The notes under the pieces were generated by a model. The model was given only the letters and a program-made list of their open reading frames with translations. It was not told the origin of the DNA and searched no databases. The position numbers and the translations under genes were made by a program. A stretch of DNA of 64,000 nucleotides from Pusillimonas sp. TS35 (GTDB lineage Bacteria; Pseudomonadota; Gammaproteobacteria; Burkholderiales; Burkholderiaceae_B). Shown in pieces: positions 1,259 through 9,825 of this stretch (position 1 is the stretch's first letter; each line of letters begins with the position of its first letter). The stretch is from positions 372,001-436,000 of the forward strand of contig NZ_WWER01000002.1 of assembly GCF_009857885.1 (NCBI RefSeq). Reading direction: 5' to 3'.

Positions 1259-1570
1259 ATGAAAAACCAGAAAATCCGCATCCGTCTGAAAGCCTTCGAT
1301 TACAAGCTGATCGATCAATCCGCAGCCGAAATCGTTGAAACGGCCAAGCGTACGGGTGCAGTGGTGCGCGGCCCCGTTCCGCTGCCTACCCGCATCCGTC
1401 GCTACGACGTGCTGCGTTCACCGCACGTCAATAAAACGTCGCGCGACCAGTTCGAAATGCGTACGCACCAGCGGCTCATGGACATCGTGGATCCCACCGA
1501 CAAGACTGTCGACGCGCTGATGCGCCTTGACCTGCCTGCAGGTGTAGACGTCGAAATCGCCCTGCAGTAA
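1259..1570 (+). CDS. rpsJ: 30S ribosomal protein S10 (NusE)
   Basis: S10 is a small-subunit protein that also acts with NusB in transcription antitermination. The 103-residue length and the opening [21 protein letters not shown] are diagnostic, as are the internal [19 protein letters not shown] and the ending [13 protein letters not shown] ribosome-binding site (aggaattccc) precedes the ATG. In most bacteria rpsJ heads the S10 operon and rplC follows directly. Here it is followed by a strong terminator, and rplC is about 7.5 kb away, so S10 appears to be made from a tuf-rpsJ transcript. Confidence 0.97.
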
Positions 1571-1616
1571 TTCGCTGTGGTAAAGGGTTCGGGCGCATTG
1601 CGCCACGAGCGCCAGC

Positions 1617-1647
1617 AAAAACGCCATGCCTTGTGCATGGCGTTTTT
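1617..1647 (+). terminator. Intrinsic terminator after rpsJ
   Basis: A nine-base-pair stem ACGCCATGC / GCATGGCGT at 1621-1629 and 1635-1643 has a 5-base loop. It is flanked by AAAA on the left and TTTTT then GTTTCT on the right. This is a textbook rho-independent terminator 46 bases after the rpsJ stop codon. Confidence 0.88.
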
Positions 1648-1946
1648 GTTTCTGCGTCTCAAGAGGCTATCCAAAAAAGTACGGGATCGCTTCTGGAAGT
1701 ATGGCTGAGCATGGCGCCTTGCTGCTTATCGGAGCACGCTGCTGGGTGCCGCCTTCCGCCTCTTGTAGTCGGTTGTGCAGCGCAGTGCGGGCGGCGCGTG
1801 TTCTGCGCATGCTATCGTGAAGGCGCCGCACAAGGGGTGGCGGAGGCCGTTGGGCGACCGCTCCATGTTAAGGCCCATGACGATCAAACGGTCCGCGCCG
1901 CATGCCGCCATTGGTCTGGCCCATTGCGGTTCATGAGGAGAGACAC
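1648..1946. other. Intergenic region before the fused ABC importer
   Basis: About 300 bases between the rpsJ terminator and the importer start. I see no convincing gene, tRNA or repeat. It must hold the importer promoter, but no clear -35/-10 pair stands out. A good ribosome-binding site (gaggaga, 1935-1941) lies at the right end. Confidence 0.5.
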
Positions 1947-4900
1947 GTGGTGGCGAATCTGCGCAGAGGGTTGATAGCGTTACTGGCTGTGCTGTCATTA
2001 TTGGTGGCGGGTGGGGCATATGGCGCCCAGGATAGTGCGACGCGGGCTGCGGAAAGCGATACTTGCAACAGCGGGCGACCCATCAGGCTGGCCGACCAAA
2101 CCTGGGAAAGCGCTTCCTTCACAATGCACGTCATCAAGGCGTTGCTCGAGGCCGCCTTCGATTGCAAGACAGAGGTGGTGCCTGGTACGCCCGCCGCGAT
2201 AGAGACCGCGTTGGCGCAGAACGATATACAGATCATTGCCGAGATCTGGACGGGTCGTTCGGAGATCATGACCAAAGCCATCGAGGCCGGACGGGCACAA
2301 GTGGTTGGGGACACGCTGGCTGGCGGTGCGGAGCAGGGCTGGTACGTGCCTGATTATGTTGTGCTGGGCGATCCCGCGCGAGGAATTGCACCCATGGCCC
2401 CCGACTTGCGCAGTTGGCATGACTTGCCCCGTTACAAGGCGCTTTTTCGAGATGAGGAAGTGCCAAGCAAGGGTCGCTTCTTGAATTGCCCATCGGGGTG
2501 GGTATGTGAGAAGACCAATACACGCCTGCTGCAACTGCACGGCCTGGACAAGGACTTCAACAACTTTCGCGCAGGTACCGGCGCAGCGCTCGACTCGGCC
2601 ATCAGCTCGGCGTATGACCGCGGGCAGCCCATTCTGTTCTACTACTGGCAGCCGGCAGGCCTCATGGCCAAGTATCGTTTCTTCAAAATCGACCTAGGGC
2701 CCTTCAACCAGCAATGCTGGGACGTCATTGTGAGCGGCAAGGGCACGCTTTGCGCGTCGGACTTCCTGCGAGCACATCTGGGTGTGGGTTTATCAGTGCC
2801 CTTTGTGCAAGGCAACCAGGCGATTGTGCGCTTTCTTGAGCGGCTGCAGTTTGAACCTCCTCTGCTCAATCGGATGATTCTGCGGATGGCGGAAACGCGC
2901 GCCAGTGGCGCAGATATGGCTGCGACCTTCCTGCGTGAGCAATATCAAACCTGGGCAGCCTGGTTGCCCGCAGAGCAAGCATTGCATGCGGCACGAAAGC
3001 TGCGCATCGCCGTCGCCTCGGGCGGCGAAACGGTGAATGTACCTGCGATATCCGCCGGCGATGGATCTGCCCTCAGCGCGGCCCCGGCCTCCTCGGCCAG
3101 CAGGGATGCGCAACGCGAGCAGAAGGCCACAGCTGAGGCGCCATCCAGCGTAGATGTGCAGCACACACCGGGTAGCGGCTTCTTCCCCAATTGGTCCGCG
3201 GCCCAACACGTGAACGAACGCCTGGCGGCCGCAGTAAAGGCCTATGGCGACAGCCTGCGGGAAGTGAGTGGCCTCATTCTCACCGTTGTGCTGCTGCCGC
3301 TCGAAGGCCTTATGCAGGCGGTGCCGCCGTGGTTTTTCCTGTTTATTGTGGCGCTGCTTTCCTGGCATGCTACGCGCAAGCCTGTCGCGACCGTCTTGTA
3401 TGTTGTGTGCCTATACCTGATCGGTGCTGTCGGCTTGTGGGACAAACTGATGCAGACCTTTGCACTGGTGCTGGCAGCTACATTGTTCGCCATCCTGATC
3501 GGCATACCGGTGGGCATACTGGCGGCGGCAAATCGGCCGTTACGACGTGTGCTGACACCCGTCATGGATGTCATGCAGACATTGCCCAGCTTCGTGTACC
3601 TGATTCCGGTGCTGATGCTGTTCGGCCTGGGCAAAGTACCCGCCTTGTTTGCCACAGTCGTCTATGCGGTGCCGCCGCTGATACGGCTGACAATACTGGG
3701 CTTGGCCCAGGTCGATCGCGGGGTGACCGAGGCCGCGCAGTCGTTTGGCGTGACGCCGTGGCAAATGCTCACCAAGGTAACCTTGCCACTGGCCAGGCCC
3801 AGTATCATGGCTGGCATCAACCAGACGACGATGATGGCGCTGGCGATGGTGGTGGTGGCCTCCATGATCGGTGCGCGGGGCCTGGGTGAGGACGTGCTCG
3901 CGGGTATCCAGACACTGGACGTTGGTCGGGGGCTGCAGGCGGGCGTGGCGATCGTTATCCTGGCGATCGTGATGGATCGGATCACCCAGGCCTATGGGCA
4001 GCCTTTGCGCAGGCGGCAGGCGGTGCGGCGCCGTGCTGAGGCCCTGACGCAGCCCACGGCAGGCCTCGCGGCCGCTACCGACGCGCAGCGCACCGAGGTT
4101 TCCAGCGACGACGGCACGCAGTTGCCGCAGGCAGCCTGGGACGGTCAGGCTGGTACGGCGGCGAGCTCCGGCGCCGTGGATGCGAGTGCCGTCAAGATCG
4201 CGATCCGCGATGTTTATAAAGTATTTGGTCGCAATGAACAGCGTGCAGTAGGCTTGTTGCGCCAGGGCGCCGATAAATCCACCGTGCAGGTGCAGACCGG
4301 TGTTAACGTTGGCCTGGCCGGGGTTGCGGTAGAGGTGCCGGCGGGTTGTATTACCTGCGTCATCGGCCTGTCGGGGTCGGGCAAGTCTACGCTTGTTCGG
4401 CATCTAAACCGCCTTATCGATCCCTCTGCCGGTGAGATCCTGGTGGATGGCGAGAATATCCTTGCCTTGAGTATGCCGCAGCTGCGTGCGCTGAGGCGCC
4501 ACAAGGTAAGCATGGTGTTCCAGGGCTTTGGCCTGTTGCCGCATATCAATGTGCTCGACAATGTGGCGTTTGGCCTGGTGGTCCGTGGCGAAACACGTCA
4601 ACGGGCGCGTGAGGCCGCCGCACGCTGGCTGGAGCGCGTGGGCCTGGCGGAATACGCGCGCAGCTATCCCGATGAGTTATCGGGAGGCATGTCGCAGCGC
4701 GTTGGGCTTGCGCGGGCCCTGGCGACGGATGCCGACGTGCTGTTGATGGACGAGGCATTCTCTGCGCTGGACCCGTTGATTAGAGACGAGATGCAGGACC
4801 AGCTGCTGGCTTTGCAGCAGCGCCTGCACAAAACCATCGTCTTCATTACGCACGATATCGACGAGGCGCTGCGGCTGGGACAGCATATCGTGATTCTGCG

Positions 4901-5003
4901 CGATGGCCGCATCGAGCAGGCAGGTACGCCAGAGGATATCCGCAAGCACCCGGCCAACGATTACGTGGCGCGTTTCGTGAGGCGCAGGGGCGCACAACCG
5001 TAA
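1947..5003 (+). CDS. Fused betaine-type ABC importer: binding protein, permease and ATPase in one polypeptide
   Basis: Probably imports a quaternary-amine compatible solute (glycine betaine, choline or proline betaine). The start is taken as GTG 1947, just after gaggaga, which gives about 1018 residues beginning with a hydrophobic signal or anchor (RRGLIALLAVLSLLVAGG); an ATG at 1902 is possible but leaves no signal at the N-terminus. Three parts follow in order. An OpuAC-like binding domain spans about residues 45-340, with the tryptophan-rich cage region FYYWQPAGLMAKY. A ProW/OpuAB-like permease spans about 430-690, with the coupling motif EAAQSFGV near 595. An ABC ATPase spans about 755-1018, with Walker A GLSGSGKST near 807, signature LSGGMSQ near 911 and Walker B LLMDE near 932. 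It has no C-terminal CBS domains, unlike ProV/OpuAA. Normally these parts are two or three separate proteins. Confidence 0.9.
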   Translation: MVANLRRGLIALLAVLSLLVAGGAYGAQDSATRAAESDTCNSGRPIRLADQTWESASFTMHVIKALLEAAFDCKTEVVPGTPAAIETALAQNDIQIIAEIWTGRSEIMTKAIEAGRAQVVGDTLAGGAEQGWYVPDYVVLGDPARGIAPMAPDLRSWHDLPRYKALFRDEEVPSKGRFLNCPSGWVCEKTNTRLLQLHGLDKDFNNFRAGTGAALDSAISSAYDRGQPILFYYWQPAGLMAKYRFFKIDLGPFNQQCWDVIVSGKGTLCASDFLRAHLGVGLSVPFVQGNQAIVRFLERLQFEPPLLNRMILRMAETRASGADMAATFLREQYQTWAAWLPAEQALHAARKLRIAVASGGETVNVPAISAGDGSALSAAPASSASRDAQREQKATAEAPSSVDVQHTPGSGFFPNWSAAQHVNERLAAAVKAYGDSLREVSGLILTVVLLPLEGLMQAVPPWFFLFIVALLSWHATRKPVATVLYVVCLYLIGAVGLWDKLMQTFALVLAATLFAILIGIPVGILAAANRPLRRVLTPVMDVMQTLPSFVYLIPVLMLFGLGKVPALFATVVYAVPPLIRLTILGLAQVDRGVTEAAQSFGVTPWQMLTKVTLPLARPSIMAGINQTTMMALAMVVVASMIGARGLGEDVLAGIQTLDVGRGLQAGVAIVILAIVMDRITQAYGQPLRRRQAVRRRAEALTQPTAGLAAATDAQRTEVSSDDGTQLPQAAWDGQAGTAASSGAVDASAVKIAIRDVYKVFGRNEQRAVGLLRQGADKSTVQVQTGVNVGLAGVAVEVPAGCITCVIGLSGSGKSTLVRHLNRLIDPSAGEILVDGENILALSMPQLRALRRHKVSMVFQGFGLLPHINVLDNVAFGLVVRGETRQRAREAAARWLERVGLAEYARSYPDELSGGMSQRVGLARALATDADVLLMDEAFSALDPLIRDEMQDQLLALQQRLHKTIVFITHDIDEALRLGQHIVILRDGRIEQAGTPEDIRKHPANDYVARFVRRRGAQP

Positions 5004-5182
5004 GCGCTTGCCACAAGAAGCGTTCTTCCCGCTTCTGGGTGTGATGGTGCGCGCGATCCAGCCACGGGCGACCGTTCACAGCTGAACACAGTGTTGCCGT
5101 GTGACAGCTTTCTTGCGTTCAACGTGTCGTTGGTGGAAGTCATGGGCGAGCGTTAGCGTGCAGTGCTTTCGGCGCCCTGGCT

Positions 5183-6154
5183 TTATTCTGAGCCTAGATG
5201 AACACCGTGCCTGCTCAGGTGCTTCAGTACGCGAGCCTGGTCGGCGCTGGCGCATTCCTGCATCAAGGTGATAAGCCGATTGGTCACTTCGGGATGCTGG
5301 CGCTGGCCACGTGCCGCGATGCCGATCTCGCGAAAAACGGTATCAGCGCCCATCGGCAGAACGCGTACCTGTTTCGAAAAGGGCAGGCAGGCGGACGCGG
5401 CCGGCACCATTGCCGCGCCTATGCCCATTTGAACCGCCCGAGCCAACCCTACAACCTCATCCAGCTCGATCGCCTCGTTCAGCGTGAGCTGCTGCCTGCG
5501 CAGGAAGAGGTCAATGGCGCGGCCGCCGAACGAGGATCGGTCATACCGGATGAACGGATACCGCATGAGCGCCTCACGCCAATCATTGCCTTCATGGCAG
5601 GCGGGCACCAACACCAAGAAGGGCTCGCGCAGCAGACTGTGCCAATGCACCTCAGGCGGTAGCACGTAGGGTGCGCGGATCATCACTGCCATGTCGAGCT
5701 CGCCGGTATCAACCTGACCCAGAATGTTGAGCGAAGCGCCCGGCAGCACGCGGACCGCGATGCCGGGAAACTCGCGCCGGAACCTGGCTAGTGCGTCCAT
5801 GAGCCACGATTGCTGCGCCGAAGTAATCGCCCCGATGAGTAGGGTGCCGCGTCTGTCGTCAGCCGGCGCAACATCGCCAAGATGCGTAATGGCAGCGACG
5901 ATTTCCAGGGCCCGTGCATGAACATCGCGGCCCATGTCGGTGAGGACGGCCTTGCGACCGGTACGGTCGAACAACTGCACGCCAATATGCTGTTCCAGGC
6001 GCTGAATCTGGCCGCTGACGGCTCCCTGCGTGAGGCCGATGTGAGCGCCGGCGCGTGCAAAGCTGCCGTGGCGTACGACGGCGATGAAAGTGCGTAGCTC
6101 TGTCAGCATGGTTTGGCTAGGGTCAGGGTGTTCATCCGCGGAACTCATCAGCAA
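5183..6154 (-). CDS. LysR-family transcriptional regulator
   Basis: A 323-residue LysR regulator with an N-terminal winged helix-turn-helix (RHGSFARAGAHIGLTQGAV, about residues 30-50) and a C-terminal effector domain. It is divergent from the RraA-like/aminotransferase/RidA genes, the classic LysR arrangement, so it probably controls them from the 6155-6390 intergenic region. The start is uncertain: M3 (6148) and M16 (6109) are alternatives, and none has a clear Shine-Dalgarno sequence. The effector is unknown. The gene ends facing the ABC importer. Confidence 0.9.
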   Translation of the reverse strand: MLMSSADEHPDPSQTMLTELRTFIAVVRHGSFARAGAHIGLTQGAVSGQIQRLEQHIGVQLFDRTGRKAVLTDMGRDVHARALEIVAAITHLGDVAPADDRRGTLLIGAITSAQQSWLMDALARFRREFPGIAVRVLPGASLNILGQVDTGELDMAVMIRAPYVLPPEVHWHSLLREPFLVLVPACHEGNDWREALMRYPFIRYDRSSFGGRAIDLFLRRQQLTLNEAIELDEVVGLARAVQMGIGAAMVPAASACLPFSKQVRVLPMGADTVFREIGIAARGQRQHPEVTNRLITLMQECASADQARVLKHLSRHGVHLGSE

Positions 6155-6390
6155 AAATGATGATTAACATAAGAAATTATCGCTTTTTCTCTGCCAATTC
6201 TAATGTGAAACTGACGGTGAGCGGCATAAGCCCCTTATGGCGGCAAAAGCCCGTTACCACGGCAAAAGCCATGATCCCCCGCAAGCCGCCATCGCTTATG
6301 TCCCGTATCGCCAAAAAAAGATCCGAGAGGCCGGCGGCAGGCAGAGCGAGCGGCGGCCCGCCGTGCTGTATTCAACAACAGGAGCCAAGC

Positions 6391-7101
6391 ATGACATTAG
6401 ATAACCGGGCACTCGAGATCCTCCAGGAGGTGACGACTGCGACGATCACCACAGTACTGCTCAAGAAAGGCCTGCGCCACACCTGGCTGCGCGGTGCTCA
6501 GCCGCTGGCGCAAGGGCTGTCGCGCGTGGTGGGCCCCGCTTTCACGCTGCGCTTTATCCCGGCTCGCGAAGACTTGGCAACGCCAGAATCCTGGCGCTCG
6601 CCCACCTCTACCCGTGCAGCGATCGAGGCCATGCCGGAAGGCGTGGTGGCGGTGATCGACGCCTTCGGCACGACGGATGCCGGTGTCTGGGGCGACATTC
6701 TGTGCGAGCGTATGGTGCGGCGTAAGGTTGCGGGCATGGTGACCGATGGCGTAGTGCGCGACGCTGCAGGCGTGATCGCGTCGGGGCTGCCAGTGTGGTC
6801 GCGCGGGCAGGCGGCGCCGCCCTCCGTGGCAGGCCTGACGTTCGCCGGCTGGCAGGAGCCTATCGGCTGCGGCGGCGTGGCCGTTTACCCGGGGGACATC
6901 ATTGTTGCTGACCAGGACGGTGTGGTGTCGATACCGGCTGCCTACCTGGACGACGTATTGGCGTTGGCGCCCGAACAGGAACGCCTGGAGGTATGGACCA
7001 TCGAGCAGGTGCGCGCTGGCCATGCACTGCCAGGCCTGTATCCGGCCAACGAAGAAAACCTTGCGCGCTACGAGGCGTTCAAGCGTGGCGCGCAAGGTTA
7101 A
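6391..7101 (+). CDS. RraA-like / HMG-CHA-type class II aldolase
   Basis: A 236-residue member of the RraA / 4-hydroxy-4-methyl-2-oxoglutarate aldolase fold, which cleaves 4-hydroxy-2-oxo acids to pyruvate (or oxaloacetate) using a divalent metal. The family core GVWGDILCERM...GMVTDGVVRD is present; R123 and D124 match the conserved Arg-Asp pair. The open frame extends up to 6157, but the ATG at 6391 follows CAGGAG and matches the family N-terminus. It could instead act like RraA itself (an RNase E inhibitor), but its aminotransferase/RidA neighbours favour catabolism. It is probably the first gene of a three-gene operon. Confidence 0.85.
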   Translation: MTLDNRALEILQEVTTATITTVLLKKGLRHTWLRGAQPLAQGLSRVVGPAFTLRFIPAREDLATPESWRSPTSTRAAIEAMPEGVVAVIDAFGTTDAGVWGDILCERMVRRKVAGMVTDGVVRDAAGVIASGLPVWSRGQAAPPSVAGLTFAGWQEPIGCGGVAVYPGDIIVADQDGVVSIPAAYLDDVLALAPEQERLEVWTIEQVRAGHALPGLYPANEENLARYEAFKRGAQG

Positions 7102-7168
7102 CGCATACAACGCATGAGCGTCCGCCAAGCACGACGCGGCCGACCCATTAATTTCAAGAGGCAAGACC

Positions 7169-8386
7169 ATGGATTGGATCAGTGAAAAATTCAGGAAGCT
7201 GGGCACAGACGACGCGCCTGGCCAGGAGGTGCGGCAACAGAACGACAGAGCCGCACTGCAACTCAAGGGACACGACCTACCCGGCCGGCCGGTGGACTTC
7301 TCGCACGGCGATGTGGATGCATTCACGCCCATCCCGGGCGCCTTCGAAGCCTTTGCGGCAGGTGTTGAACGTGGGGGCGCACAAGCCTATACGGAATACC
7401 GTGGCGCTCTGGCGATCCGGCAGGATCTGGCCGCGAAGCTGACCGCCTTTACCGGCAGCCCGGTGCAGGGCGACGATGACATGATAATCACGTCGGGCAC
7501 ACAAGGCGCGCTGTTCCTGGCTGTGGCCTGCACAGTCGCGCGTGGCACCAAAGTGGCCATTGTCCAGCCCGACTATTTCGCCAACCGCAAGCTGGTGGAA
7601 TTCTTCGAAGGCGACATGGTGCCGGTGCGCATGGATTACCTGGGCGCCCGGGCGGGTGCAGGCTTGGACCTCACGCAGTTGGAAGACGCTTTCAAGGCGG
7701 GGGTGAAAGTGTTTCTGTTCTCCAATCCTAACAATCCCGCCGGGGTCATCTACTCGTCCGGTGAAATCCGCGATATCGCATCGCTGGCGTCGCGCTATGG
7801 TGTCACGGTCATCGTGGACCAGCTATATTCCCGGCTGCTGTATTCCGATGCGGCCTACACGCATCTGCGCGCCCAGGCCGTCGACCAAGAGAACGTCATT
7901 ACCATTATTGGCCCGTCCAAGACAGAGTCCATGAGCGGCTACCGCCTGGGTGTAGCGTTTGGCGCGCCCGCAATCATCAGCCGCATGGAGAAGCTGCAGG
8001 CCATCGTTTCATTGCGCGCGGCCGGCTACAATCAGGCGGTGCTCAAGACATGGTTTGATGAGCCAGCGGGCTGGATGACGCAGCGCATCGCATACCATCA
8101 AGCCATCCGCGACGACCTGCTGGCGCTGTTGCGGACGGTGGGTGGGCTCGAGGCGCGTACGCCCGAGGCCGGCAGTTATTTGTTCCCGCGTCTGCCCGAG
8201 CTGTCCATCCCGCCCGCCAATTTTGTGCGCGCCCTGCGTCTGCAAGCCGGGGTGACGGTCACGCCGGGCACAGAATTCAGCCCCCATGCAGCAAACAGCA
8301 TACGTTTCAACTTTTCGCAGGATCACCAGGCGGCGGTACAGGCGGTCGAACGTACGGTTGCCCTGATCGCGCGATACCGTCGATAG
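7169..8386 (+). CDS. PLP-dependent class I/II aminotransferase
   Basis: A fold-type I aminotransferase of 405 residues, cytoplasmic. Visible motifs are the cofactor-binding SGTQGAL region, SNPNNPAG (near 190), VDQLYSRLLYS, the Schiff-base lysine K251 in GPSKTESMSGYRLG, and a C-terminal substrate-carboxylate arginine in IRFNFS. Substrate is not determinable from sequence. It lies 67 bases after the RraA-like aldolase and 14 bases before a RidA gene. An aminotransferase feeding a 2-oxo acid to an aldolase is therefore a reasonable guess. The ribosome-binding site AAGAGGC precedes the ATG. Confidence 0.9.
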   Translation: MDWISEKFRKLGTDDAPGQEVRQQNDRAALQLKGHDLPGRPVDFSHGDVDAFTPIPGAFEAFAAGVERGGAQAYTEYRGALAIRQDLAAKLTAFTGSPVQGDDDMIITSGTQGALFLAVACTVARGTKVAIVQPDYFANRKLVEFFEGDMVPVRMDYLGARAGAGLDLTQLEDAFKAGVKVFLFSNPNNPAGVIYSSGEIRDIASLASRYGVTVIVDQLYSRLLYSDAAYTHLRAQAVDQENVITIIGPSKTESMSGYRLGVAFGAPAIISRMEKLQAIVSLRAAGYNQAVLKTWFDEPAGWMTQRIAYHQAIRDDLLALLRTVGGLEARTPEAGSYLFPRLPELSIPPANFVRALRLQAGVTVTPGTEFSPHAANSIRFNFSQDHQAAVQAVERTVALIARYRR

Positions 8387-8400
8387 GAACCCCACCACTC

Positions 8401-8835
8401 ATGCCGCAAACCACCCAGTCACCCAAGCCGCAGGGCCGCTACGCGCCCGCCACCCGCGACGGCAACCGTATCTTCACCGCCGGCATGACGCCACGTCGTG
8501 ATGGCGCCCTCATCATGCAAGGCAAGATCGATGCGCAGACGCCAGCCGAGCATTACCGGCCGGCGGTCGAGTTGGCGGCCGCCAACGCGCTGCGCGCTGC
8601 GCACGACTTGCTGGCCGATGGCGAGCGCATCGGCCGCGTGCTGAATATGACGGTATACGTGGCGGCCCAGGAGCCATTCACGACACATTCATCAATCGCC
8701 GATTTCGCTTCCGGCTATTTGTACGACACGCTGGGCGATGCCGGCATCGGCAGCCGCACCGCCATCGGCGTGCAGTCGCTGCCAGGTAATGCGCCGGTCG
8801 AGATCGCGCTGGTCGTGGCGGTGGCGGCGGGATGA
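8401..8835 (+). CDS. RidA/YjgF-family enamine/imine deaminase
   Basis: A 144-residue RidA superfamily protein. Family members hydrolyse reactive enamine/imine intermediates released by PLP enzymes, and others are reactions-specific deaminases in catabolic operons. Typical features are the opening GRYAPATRDGNRIFTAGM and the C-terminal GVQSLPGNAPVEIALVVAV. It lies directly behind the aminotransferase, fitting removal of imine by-products or deamination in the same pathway. It belongs to a pathway-linked RidA subgroup rather than clearly to archetypal RidA. Confidence 0.88.
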   Translation: MPQTTQSPKPQGRYAPATRDGNRIFTAGMTPRRDGALIMQGKIDAQTPAEHYRPAVELAAANALRAAHDLLADGERIGRVLNMTVYVAAQEPFTTHSSIADFASGYLYDTLGDAGIGSRTAIGVQSLPGNAPVEIALVVAVAAG

Positions 8836-9135
8836 TCGGCCTGGCTGCCTGGCCCTTCCTCTTCAACTGAGCCCGGCGTCCGGCCGCCCGCTCATTCCGC
8901 CGTGGCAGCCCGGTTCGTCGCGTGCCTGTCGTTTTTCCACCAAGCAGGGGGGTGCGGGAGGGCGCAGCCGGCATTGCTGCTTGCTATCACCTATTGACTC
9001 ATGCTAAATTACGAGGCTTAGCCAAAAAAGCTTTGGTTAAATAGATTCGTGTATGCAATGGCCCGCTGGTTGCACAGCGGGCGCATGTATACGGTAATTA
9101 GCCCCGACCAATCGCAGTCGGGAATGGAGAAAACA
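8836..9135 (+). promoter_or_regulatory. Promoter and structured leader of the rplC-rpsQ operon
   Basis: A 300-base gap with no gene. A TTGACT -35-like hexamer lies at 8994-8999, with A/T-rich -10 candidates in 9005-9022; the exact -10 is unclear. Two perfect hairpins follow: GCCCGCTG/CAGCGGGC (9061-9068 and 9075-9082) and CCCGAC/GTCGGG (9103-9108 and 9117-9122). The second ends a few bases before the ribosome-binding site (ggaga) of rplC. Neither has a U-tract, so they look like leader RNA structures, perhaps a site for ribosomal-protein autoregulation. The left part (8836-8980) shows nothing recognisable. Confidence 0.5.
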
Positions 9136-9825
9136 ATGTCGAACCCGACACCTACGCCTGCCGCGCATCGGCTGGGCCTGGTAGGGCGTAAGGTCGGCAT
9201 GACCCGTATTTTCACCGAGGAAGGCGAGTCCATCCCGGTGACTGTGCTGGACGTGTCGAACAACCGCGTTACCCAGGTCAAGTCGCCAGAAACCGATGGC
9301 TACGCTGCCATTCAGGTTGCCTACGGCACCCGTCGCGCCACGCGCGTGAACAAGGCCCTGGCAGGCCAATATGCCAAAGCCGGCGTCGAAGCTGGCAGCA
9401 TCCTCAAAGAGTTTCGCCTCGATCCCGCCAAAGCGGCTGAATTCACAGCCGGTTCCGTTGTGGCCGTCGAAAGCGTATTCGAAGCCGGCCAAAAGGTCGA
9501 CGTCACGGGCACCACGATCGGTAAAGGCTTTGCCGGTACCATCAAGCGCCACAACTTCAGTTCGCAGCGCGCGTCGCACGGTAACTCCCGTTCGCACCGC
9601 GTTCCGGGCTCGATCGGTCAGGCACAGGATCCGGGTCGCATCTTCCCCGGCAAGAAAATGTCCGGCCATCTGGGTGACGTTACCCGTACCGTTCAAAACC
9701 TCGACATCGTGCGTGTCGATGCCGAACGCGGTCTGCTTTTGGTCAAGGGCGCTGTCCCCGGCCACAAGAATTCCGACGTTGTCGTGCGTCCCGCCATCAA
9801 GATGTCGGCCAAGAAAGGAGCCTAA
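9136..9825 (+). CDS. rplC: 50S ribosomal protein L3
   Basis: L3 nucleates 23S rRNA folding near the peptidyl-transferase centre. The core is clear: [18 protein letters not shown] at the start and the loop motif [24 protein letters not shown]. The ATG at 9136 is chosen because of the adjacent GGAGA and the betaproteobacterial N-terminus [14 protein letters not shown]; an in-frame ATG at 9049 would add 29 residues encoded across the leader hairpins and is rejected. The protein is 229 residues. It is the first gene of the second ribosomal transcription unit. Confidence 0.97.

Follow-up and report, generated by a model that had tools for sequence, protein, structure and literature searches.

Quaternary amine importers of the ProU/OpuA type constitute class TC 3.A.1.12, and fused importers have reportedly been reviewed by the Groningen group. 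In Gram-negative bacteria, the binding protein is usually a free periplasmic protein, and its fusion with the permease is described for Gram-positive bacteria (excerpt of PMC9732360). In OpuA, the binding domain is covalently linked to the permease, two being present per transporter (excerpt of PMC11065425). More generally, the ATPase domains may be fused to the membrane domains in some ABC transporters (excerpt of PMC8276074). No account of a fusion of binding domain, permease, and ATPase in this importer family was found in the open-access literature searched.

Such a fusion is present in the window, the stretch of 64,000 nucleotides from Pusillimonas sp. TS35 that was analysed. The fused frame is genuine and coding, and few of the genomes searched have one. 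A complete type I ABC importer of the binding-protein-dependent kind, normally assembled from at least two proteins, seems to be encoded here as one polypeptide, and we put the probability of this reading at roughly 0.7. If such a chain works as a homodimer, the dock-and-release cycle would require no free binding protein and no ATPase on a chain of its own. A one-gene importer with a fixed 1:1:1 stoichiometry would be handy for structural and single-molecule work. Since both overlapping genes and a single gene occur within the family, it provides a natural case of gene fusion.

The three-domain frame and its genomic setting

The frame lies on the forward strand and runs from either ATG at 1902 (1033 residues; the numbering of this product, P0001, is used below) or GTG at 1947 (1018 residues) to the stop at 5003. 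GTG 1947 appears to be the better start, because the GAGGAG sequence is located six bases ahead of it (Table 1), and the coordinates 1947-5003 given in an earlier, sequence-only reading match this start exactly. No promoter was found upstream of the gene by a consensus scan. The hydropathy peak (residues 24-42) is within the putative signal peptide, which was read by eye.

Table 1. Positions of the features of the importer gene in the window
Feature	Position	Strand	Basis or remark
Likely ribosome-binding site, GAGGAG	1935-1940	+	Sequence
Three-domain importer gene, 1018 residues and stop	1947-5003	+	ATG 1902 is an alternative start (1033 residues)
Signal peptide	1947-2027	+	Read by eye: positively charged start, then a hydrophobic stretch, ending in AYGA
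OpuAC/ProX-type binding domain	2079-2939	+	PF04069
Variable linker, binding domain to membrane domain	2982-3218	+	Alignment; low model confidence at P0002 359-415
ProW-type membrane domain	3219-3998	+	PF00528 at 3501-3998
Linker between permease and ATPase, charged, probably disordered	3999-4184	+	No in-frame counterpart in two-gene relatives
CTGA at about the ATPase start/permease stop site of relatives (ATGA or TGATG)	4044-4047	+	Alignment weak here
ProV-type ATPase domain	4185-5000	+	PF00005 at 4317-4760
Walker A	4365-4388	+	GLSGSGKS at P0001 822
Signature	4677-4694	+	LSGGMSQ at P0001 926
Walker B	4737-4754	+	VLLMDE at P0001 946

Three Pfam domains follow one another in the frame: OpuAC (residues 60-346, E 4e-44; 151.6 bits against a cut-off of 21.2), BPD_transp_1 (residues 534-699, E 3.3e-28, above the cut-off), and ABC_tran (residues 806-953, E 5.7e-29). 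The earlier proposal of a single frame holding three parts of a betaine-type (ProU/OpuA-like) importer is thus borne out by both sequence and fold. The Walker A, signature, and Walker B motifs, described in the same reading as intact, are all present, and so are the Q-loop (residue 872) and the H-loop (residue 983), so that all five ATPase motifs are intact. The signature is LSGGMSQ, compared with LSGGMRQ in 23 of 28 homologues. The best NCBIfam fits of the window protein are ATPases and permeases for choline and glycine betaine, all under their curated cut-offs: none of the cut-offs for ChoV, ProV, ChoW, and ProW was reached. The nearest miss was proV (TIGR01186; 324.8 bits against 326.6); the ATPase scored 327.4 bits against 483.75 with the ChoV model, and the binding domain 55.7 bits against 215 with ProX. 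The best solved relative of the permease is OpuA (E 7.1e-86, profile A1).

No CBS domain was found by Pfam in the window protein. The OpuA ATPase carries CBS domains. Absence of these domains had been taken as a hint of special gating; this is not upheld, since six of six separate orthologous ATPases scanned are also devoid of CBS domains. The absence is therefore old and is not tied to the fusion.

The importer sits between rpsJ and rplC (window 1259-9825), splitting the S10 ribosomal protein operon. In all 17 main-clade Alcaligenaceae loci examined, the transporter is preceded by rpsJ, followed by rplC, or both (both in 10). As for the remaining loci, the other flank is cut off by the contig end in L064 and L170, there is no rpsJ within 4.2 kb in L172, and there is no rplC within 5.2-7.5 kb in L063, L175, L176, and L177. 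In eight of 12 comparison genomes, rpsJ and rplC lie next to each other; in the other four, the retrieved flank held no rplC. Two Advenella loci, from another branch, have neither rpsJ nor rplC. From the flanking genes in 17 of 17 loci, the gap between rpsJ and rplC looks like a long-kept insertion site. Following rpsJ (1617-1647), a perfect inverted repeat of 12 bases, whose loop has 7 bases and whose 3' side is rich in T, is likely to be a terminator; a consensus terminator scan gave 3 sites versus 3.2 in shuffled sequence, that is, no excess. Between the importer and rplC (5183-8835), genes for a LysR regulator (reverse strand), an RraA-like protein, an aminotransferase (PRK06207), and a RidA-like protein are located, and these form a small catabolic island. 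The RraA-like, aminotransferase, and RidA genes had no match in 35 related loci searched.

Distribution, junction, and origin of the fusion

A search of 268 genomes of the family Alcaligenaceae gave 63 with a match to the part comprising binding domain and permease at E <= 1e-100. Thirteen of these were set aside as paralogous operons (36-42% identity, matches spanning 1-4 stops), and the transporter is therefore carried by 50 of the 268 genomes, after sorting by the authors. Four of the 50, namely the window genome, G040, G203, and G204, have the ATPase in that frame too. In the other 46, the reported open frame has 647-842 residues, which leaves no room for an additional ATPase; in 20 of these, the ATPase was also read in a frame of its own. 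The reported frame lengths agreed with the translations compared, except in G041 (726 versus 652) and G005 (710; the locus is cut). G040, G203, and G204 are all three available genomes of another genus of the family, g37, and PF04069, PF00528, and PF00005 are found in one frame in each of them. The domain search for the same architecture suggested in the sequence-only reading thus had a positive outcome within the family, and the candidate view that the fusion is unique to the window is ruled out.

Wider searches added no further case. None of the best 80 named loci in a contig search has the three domains in one frame, and no frame longer than 871 residues, except that of the window, was found in a search of the order (399 genomes, 42 matching at 1e-60), for which the match table is complete. 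Frames of about 980-1180 residues were reported at many places, including among the matches listed in a search of the phylum (398 genomes). Twenty-five such loci were translated and none has three domains in one frame; the frame lengths reported in the searches that listed them are therefore no evidence.

In the relatives, a single gene already covers the binding domain and the permease, and a second one encodes the ATPase. This means that only the ATPase was added, and a joining of three genes by error, which had been named as a refutation, is ruled out in that form. What stands of this objection concerns the ATPase junction, where an error has become less likely owing to the three g37 genomes. 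For the window itself, it might be supposed that the frame results from an assembly or sequencing error and that the organism has the usual two overlapping genes. Its species is represented by a single assembly, so that the frame of 1040 residues from stop to stop is no independent proof, and the four other species of its genus have the two-gene form. In addition, the other two frames have stops at 4037 and 4045, near the end of the permease in the relatives, and one missing or extra base would therefore restore the usual layout. However, the longest run of a single base in 3990-4060 is three, so the junction has no typical error site, and the base ahead of the TGA at 4045 is C instead of A, which means that the usual ATG start is absent there. 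The same fusion also occurs in three of three g37 genomes, although these assemblies are fragmented (250-300 contigs, 83-92% complete). An error in the window is considered quite improbable on these grounds, and the frame is taken to be truly fused.

The junctions of the two-gene relatives indicate how the two genes might have been merged. In 18 of 18 junctions printed from family genomes, the permease stop and a candidate start codon of the ATPase overlap by 1-8 nucleotides, and the same overlap was observed in L015, from another family of the same order. Owing to these overlapping ends, a small change can fuse both genes. In the CTGA of the window, CTG is in the ATPase frame and TGA is in another frame. 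The ancestor would have had the two-gene form of the family, a gene for binding domain and permease followed by an overlapping ATPase gene. An indel that changed the frame within the permease tail, which is poorly conserved, would then have produced one frame together with loss of the ATG. This indel origin is our inference for the window fusion, and the weak alignment at the junction makes it a tentative one.

The open linkers, counted from DRITQAYG to YKVFG, are 72 residues long in the window, 111 in G040, 37 in G203, and 56 in G204, and 73-85% of their residues are disorder-promoting. It is conceivable that the frame is fused and that some or most of the ATPase nevertheless arises as a separate product, through an internal start or proteolysis; a working importer would then still consist of two kinds of chain. 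GTG 4023, GTG 4176, and CTG 4044 are in frame in the window linker, disorder-prone linkers are likely to be cut, and the G040 linker has one in-frame ATG. Against this, no ATG is present in the ATPase frame within the window linker, and the linkers of G203 and G204 likewise have no in-frame ATG, but only GTG or TTG. Separate production of the ATPase seems unlikely, and synthesis as one chain is the preferred reading.

The fusion event probably occurred twice in the family. In a tree of 28 concatenated homologues, a group made up of the window, its genus, and G006 has support 92/94 (not starred), and g37 forms a separate clade (support 100/100). Forcing the four fusions together cost 16.2 log-likelihood units (AU p 0.044). 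By this sequence comparison, two origins seem to fit the four fusions weakly better than one; a single origin, seen in 35% of 200 bootstrap trees, may also account for all four.

The window gene is under purifying selection, a little looser than that on its kin. The pN/pS values of the window against three congeneric species (G001, G002, and G003), with synonymous sites near saturation, are 0.23-0.28 for the binding domain, 0.16-0.17 for the permease, and 0.21 for the ATPase, which indicates that the frame is coding and constrained in all three domains. The corresponding values of G002 against G001 and G003, also near saturation, are 0.19-0.24, 0.12-0.13, and 0.14. The end branch of the window (0.24, versus 0.03-0.13 within its genus) could mean relaxed constraint.

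Proposed mode of action and substrate

The chain would consist, in order, of a signal peptide, a periplasmic ProX-type domain, a flexible linker, a ProW-type membrane domain ending in the cytoplasm, a charged flexible linker, and a ProV-type ATPase. The hydrophobic segments between residues 469 and 690 and the Arg-rich tail seem to agree with a binding domain on the outer side and an ATPase on the inner side. ProW has a periplasmic N-terminal tail; no paper on this topology was found in the open literature searched. A structure model was built from rows of binding domain and permease only (alignment A3), because alignments mixing in ATPase-only rows came out misaligned. The binding and membrane domains were mostly predicted with confidence, and the ATPase part was not usable. 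With this model, Foldseek retrieved OpuA for the membrane domain, and DmpX, TmoX, and ProX for the binding domain. By analogy with other ABC transporters, two copies would form the transporter, each contributing a membrane domain, an ATPase, and a tethered binding domain, so that the ratio would be fixed at 1:1:1. In the window genome, the next best ATPase scored 163 bits, whereas those of the ProV type in G002 and G003 reached at least 318 bits. A close second ATPase of this type was thus not seen in its own genome, and the fused ATPase should therefore be the motor. On balance, we lean towards a one-chain type I importer, working as a homodimer, that was reached twice independently within Alcaligenaceae by in-frame merging of overlapping genes.

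The putative aromatic cage is composed of Trp68, Trp116, Trp200, Tyr247, and Trp249, which are invariant in the alignment of 28 homologues (28/28). The DMSP pocket of DmpX is formed by four tryptophans and one tyrosine (excerpt of PMC10030565). The cage would take a small zwitterion or a quaternary-ammonium or sulfonium compound, upon which the binding domain would close. The closed domain would then dock on the paired membrane domains, and uptake would be powered by the binding and hydrolysis of ATP. Expression as one chain, this substrate class, and transport are all presumed here.

The evidence on the substrate appears to conflict, as a betaine-type cage is set against a homologue linked to hut genes. 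This homologue, from Pseudomonas aeruginosa PA7 (L090, 4135-12115), is encoded between hutH (TIGR01225) and hutG (TIGR02017), both above cut-off, and shares 67% identity in the permease, 61% in the ATPase, and 40% in the binding domain. In pseudomonads, hutXWV is a histidine ABC transporter (excerpt of PMC8871633). The same machine might accordingly carry histidine or a similar amino acid instead of betaine. The cage residues are identical in the PA7 homologue, and the cage alone therefore does not tell betaine from histidine importers. On the other hand, the ligands in the solved binding proteins nearest in sequence and fold are DMSP, TMAO, and glycine betaine, and identity in the binding domain, at just 40%, is low. 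No hut genes are beside the window gene: rpsJ is before it, and the LysR, RraA-like, aminotransferase, and RidA genes are after it. Histidine uptake is regarded as a possible but doubtful alternative, and a betaine-type substrate is tentatively preferred. It should be mentioned that the neighbouring genes of L073, and one of L069, gave no pathway hint.

Comparison with known systems

Among the closest systems are the two-gene orthologues of Alcaligenaceae (for example L062 and L065 of Alcaligenes, L067 of Candidimonas humi, and L110 of Yanghanlia), which have the same domains in the rpsJ/rplC neighbourhood. As in the window, their binding domain is N-terminal of the permease in one gene and their ATPase has no CBS domains. 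They differ in that the ATPase is a separate gene, overlapping the permease stop by a few bases. N-terminal fusions of binding domain and permease were also observed in L073, L077, L081, L082, L093, L094, and L101, which belong to Psychrobacter, Advenella, Parvibaculum-like, and Sphingomonas genomes; their ATPase either is separate or was not found in the vicinity. Such fusions contrast with the usual free binding protein of Gram-negative bacteria.

DmpX, TmoX, and ProX (7yle, 4xz6, and 1r9l) have the same binding fold, but they are not fused. The four tryptophans and the tyrosine of the DmpX cage are at matching positions. Glu113 and Ala153 of DmpX are replaced by Gln145 and Val201, respectively, in the window protein, and Thr64 has no sure counterpart. 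The HutXWV-like system of PA7 is homologous in all three parts, with an ATPase of about 277 residues and the same cage residues, whereas each of its three parts has a gene of its own within a histidine-utilisation cluster.

OpuA of Lactococcus lactis (7ahc and 7ahd) has a homologous ATPase and permease, the latter with 40-43% identity (Foldseek). It had been offered as the precedent for the present fusion, but it is a different one: in the solved chain, the binding domain follows the permease on its C-terminal side, whereas that of the window protein is N-terminal. Furthermore, the OpuA ATPase is on a separate chain, and that of the window is in the same frame. In EgtUBC of Streptococcus pneumoniae, permease and binding domain are in one chain, as in the window; however, the permease comes first, the ATPase is separate, and the substrate is ergothioneine (excerpt of PMC9732360).
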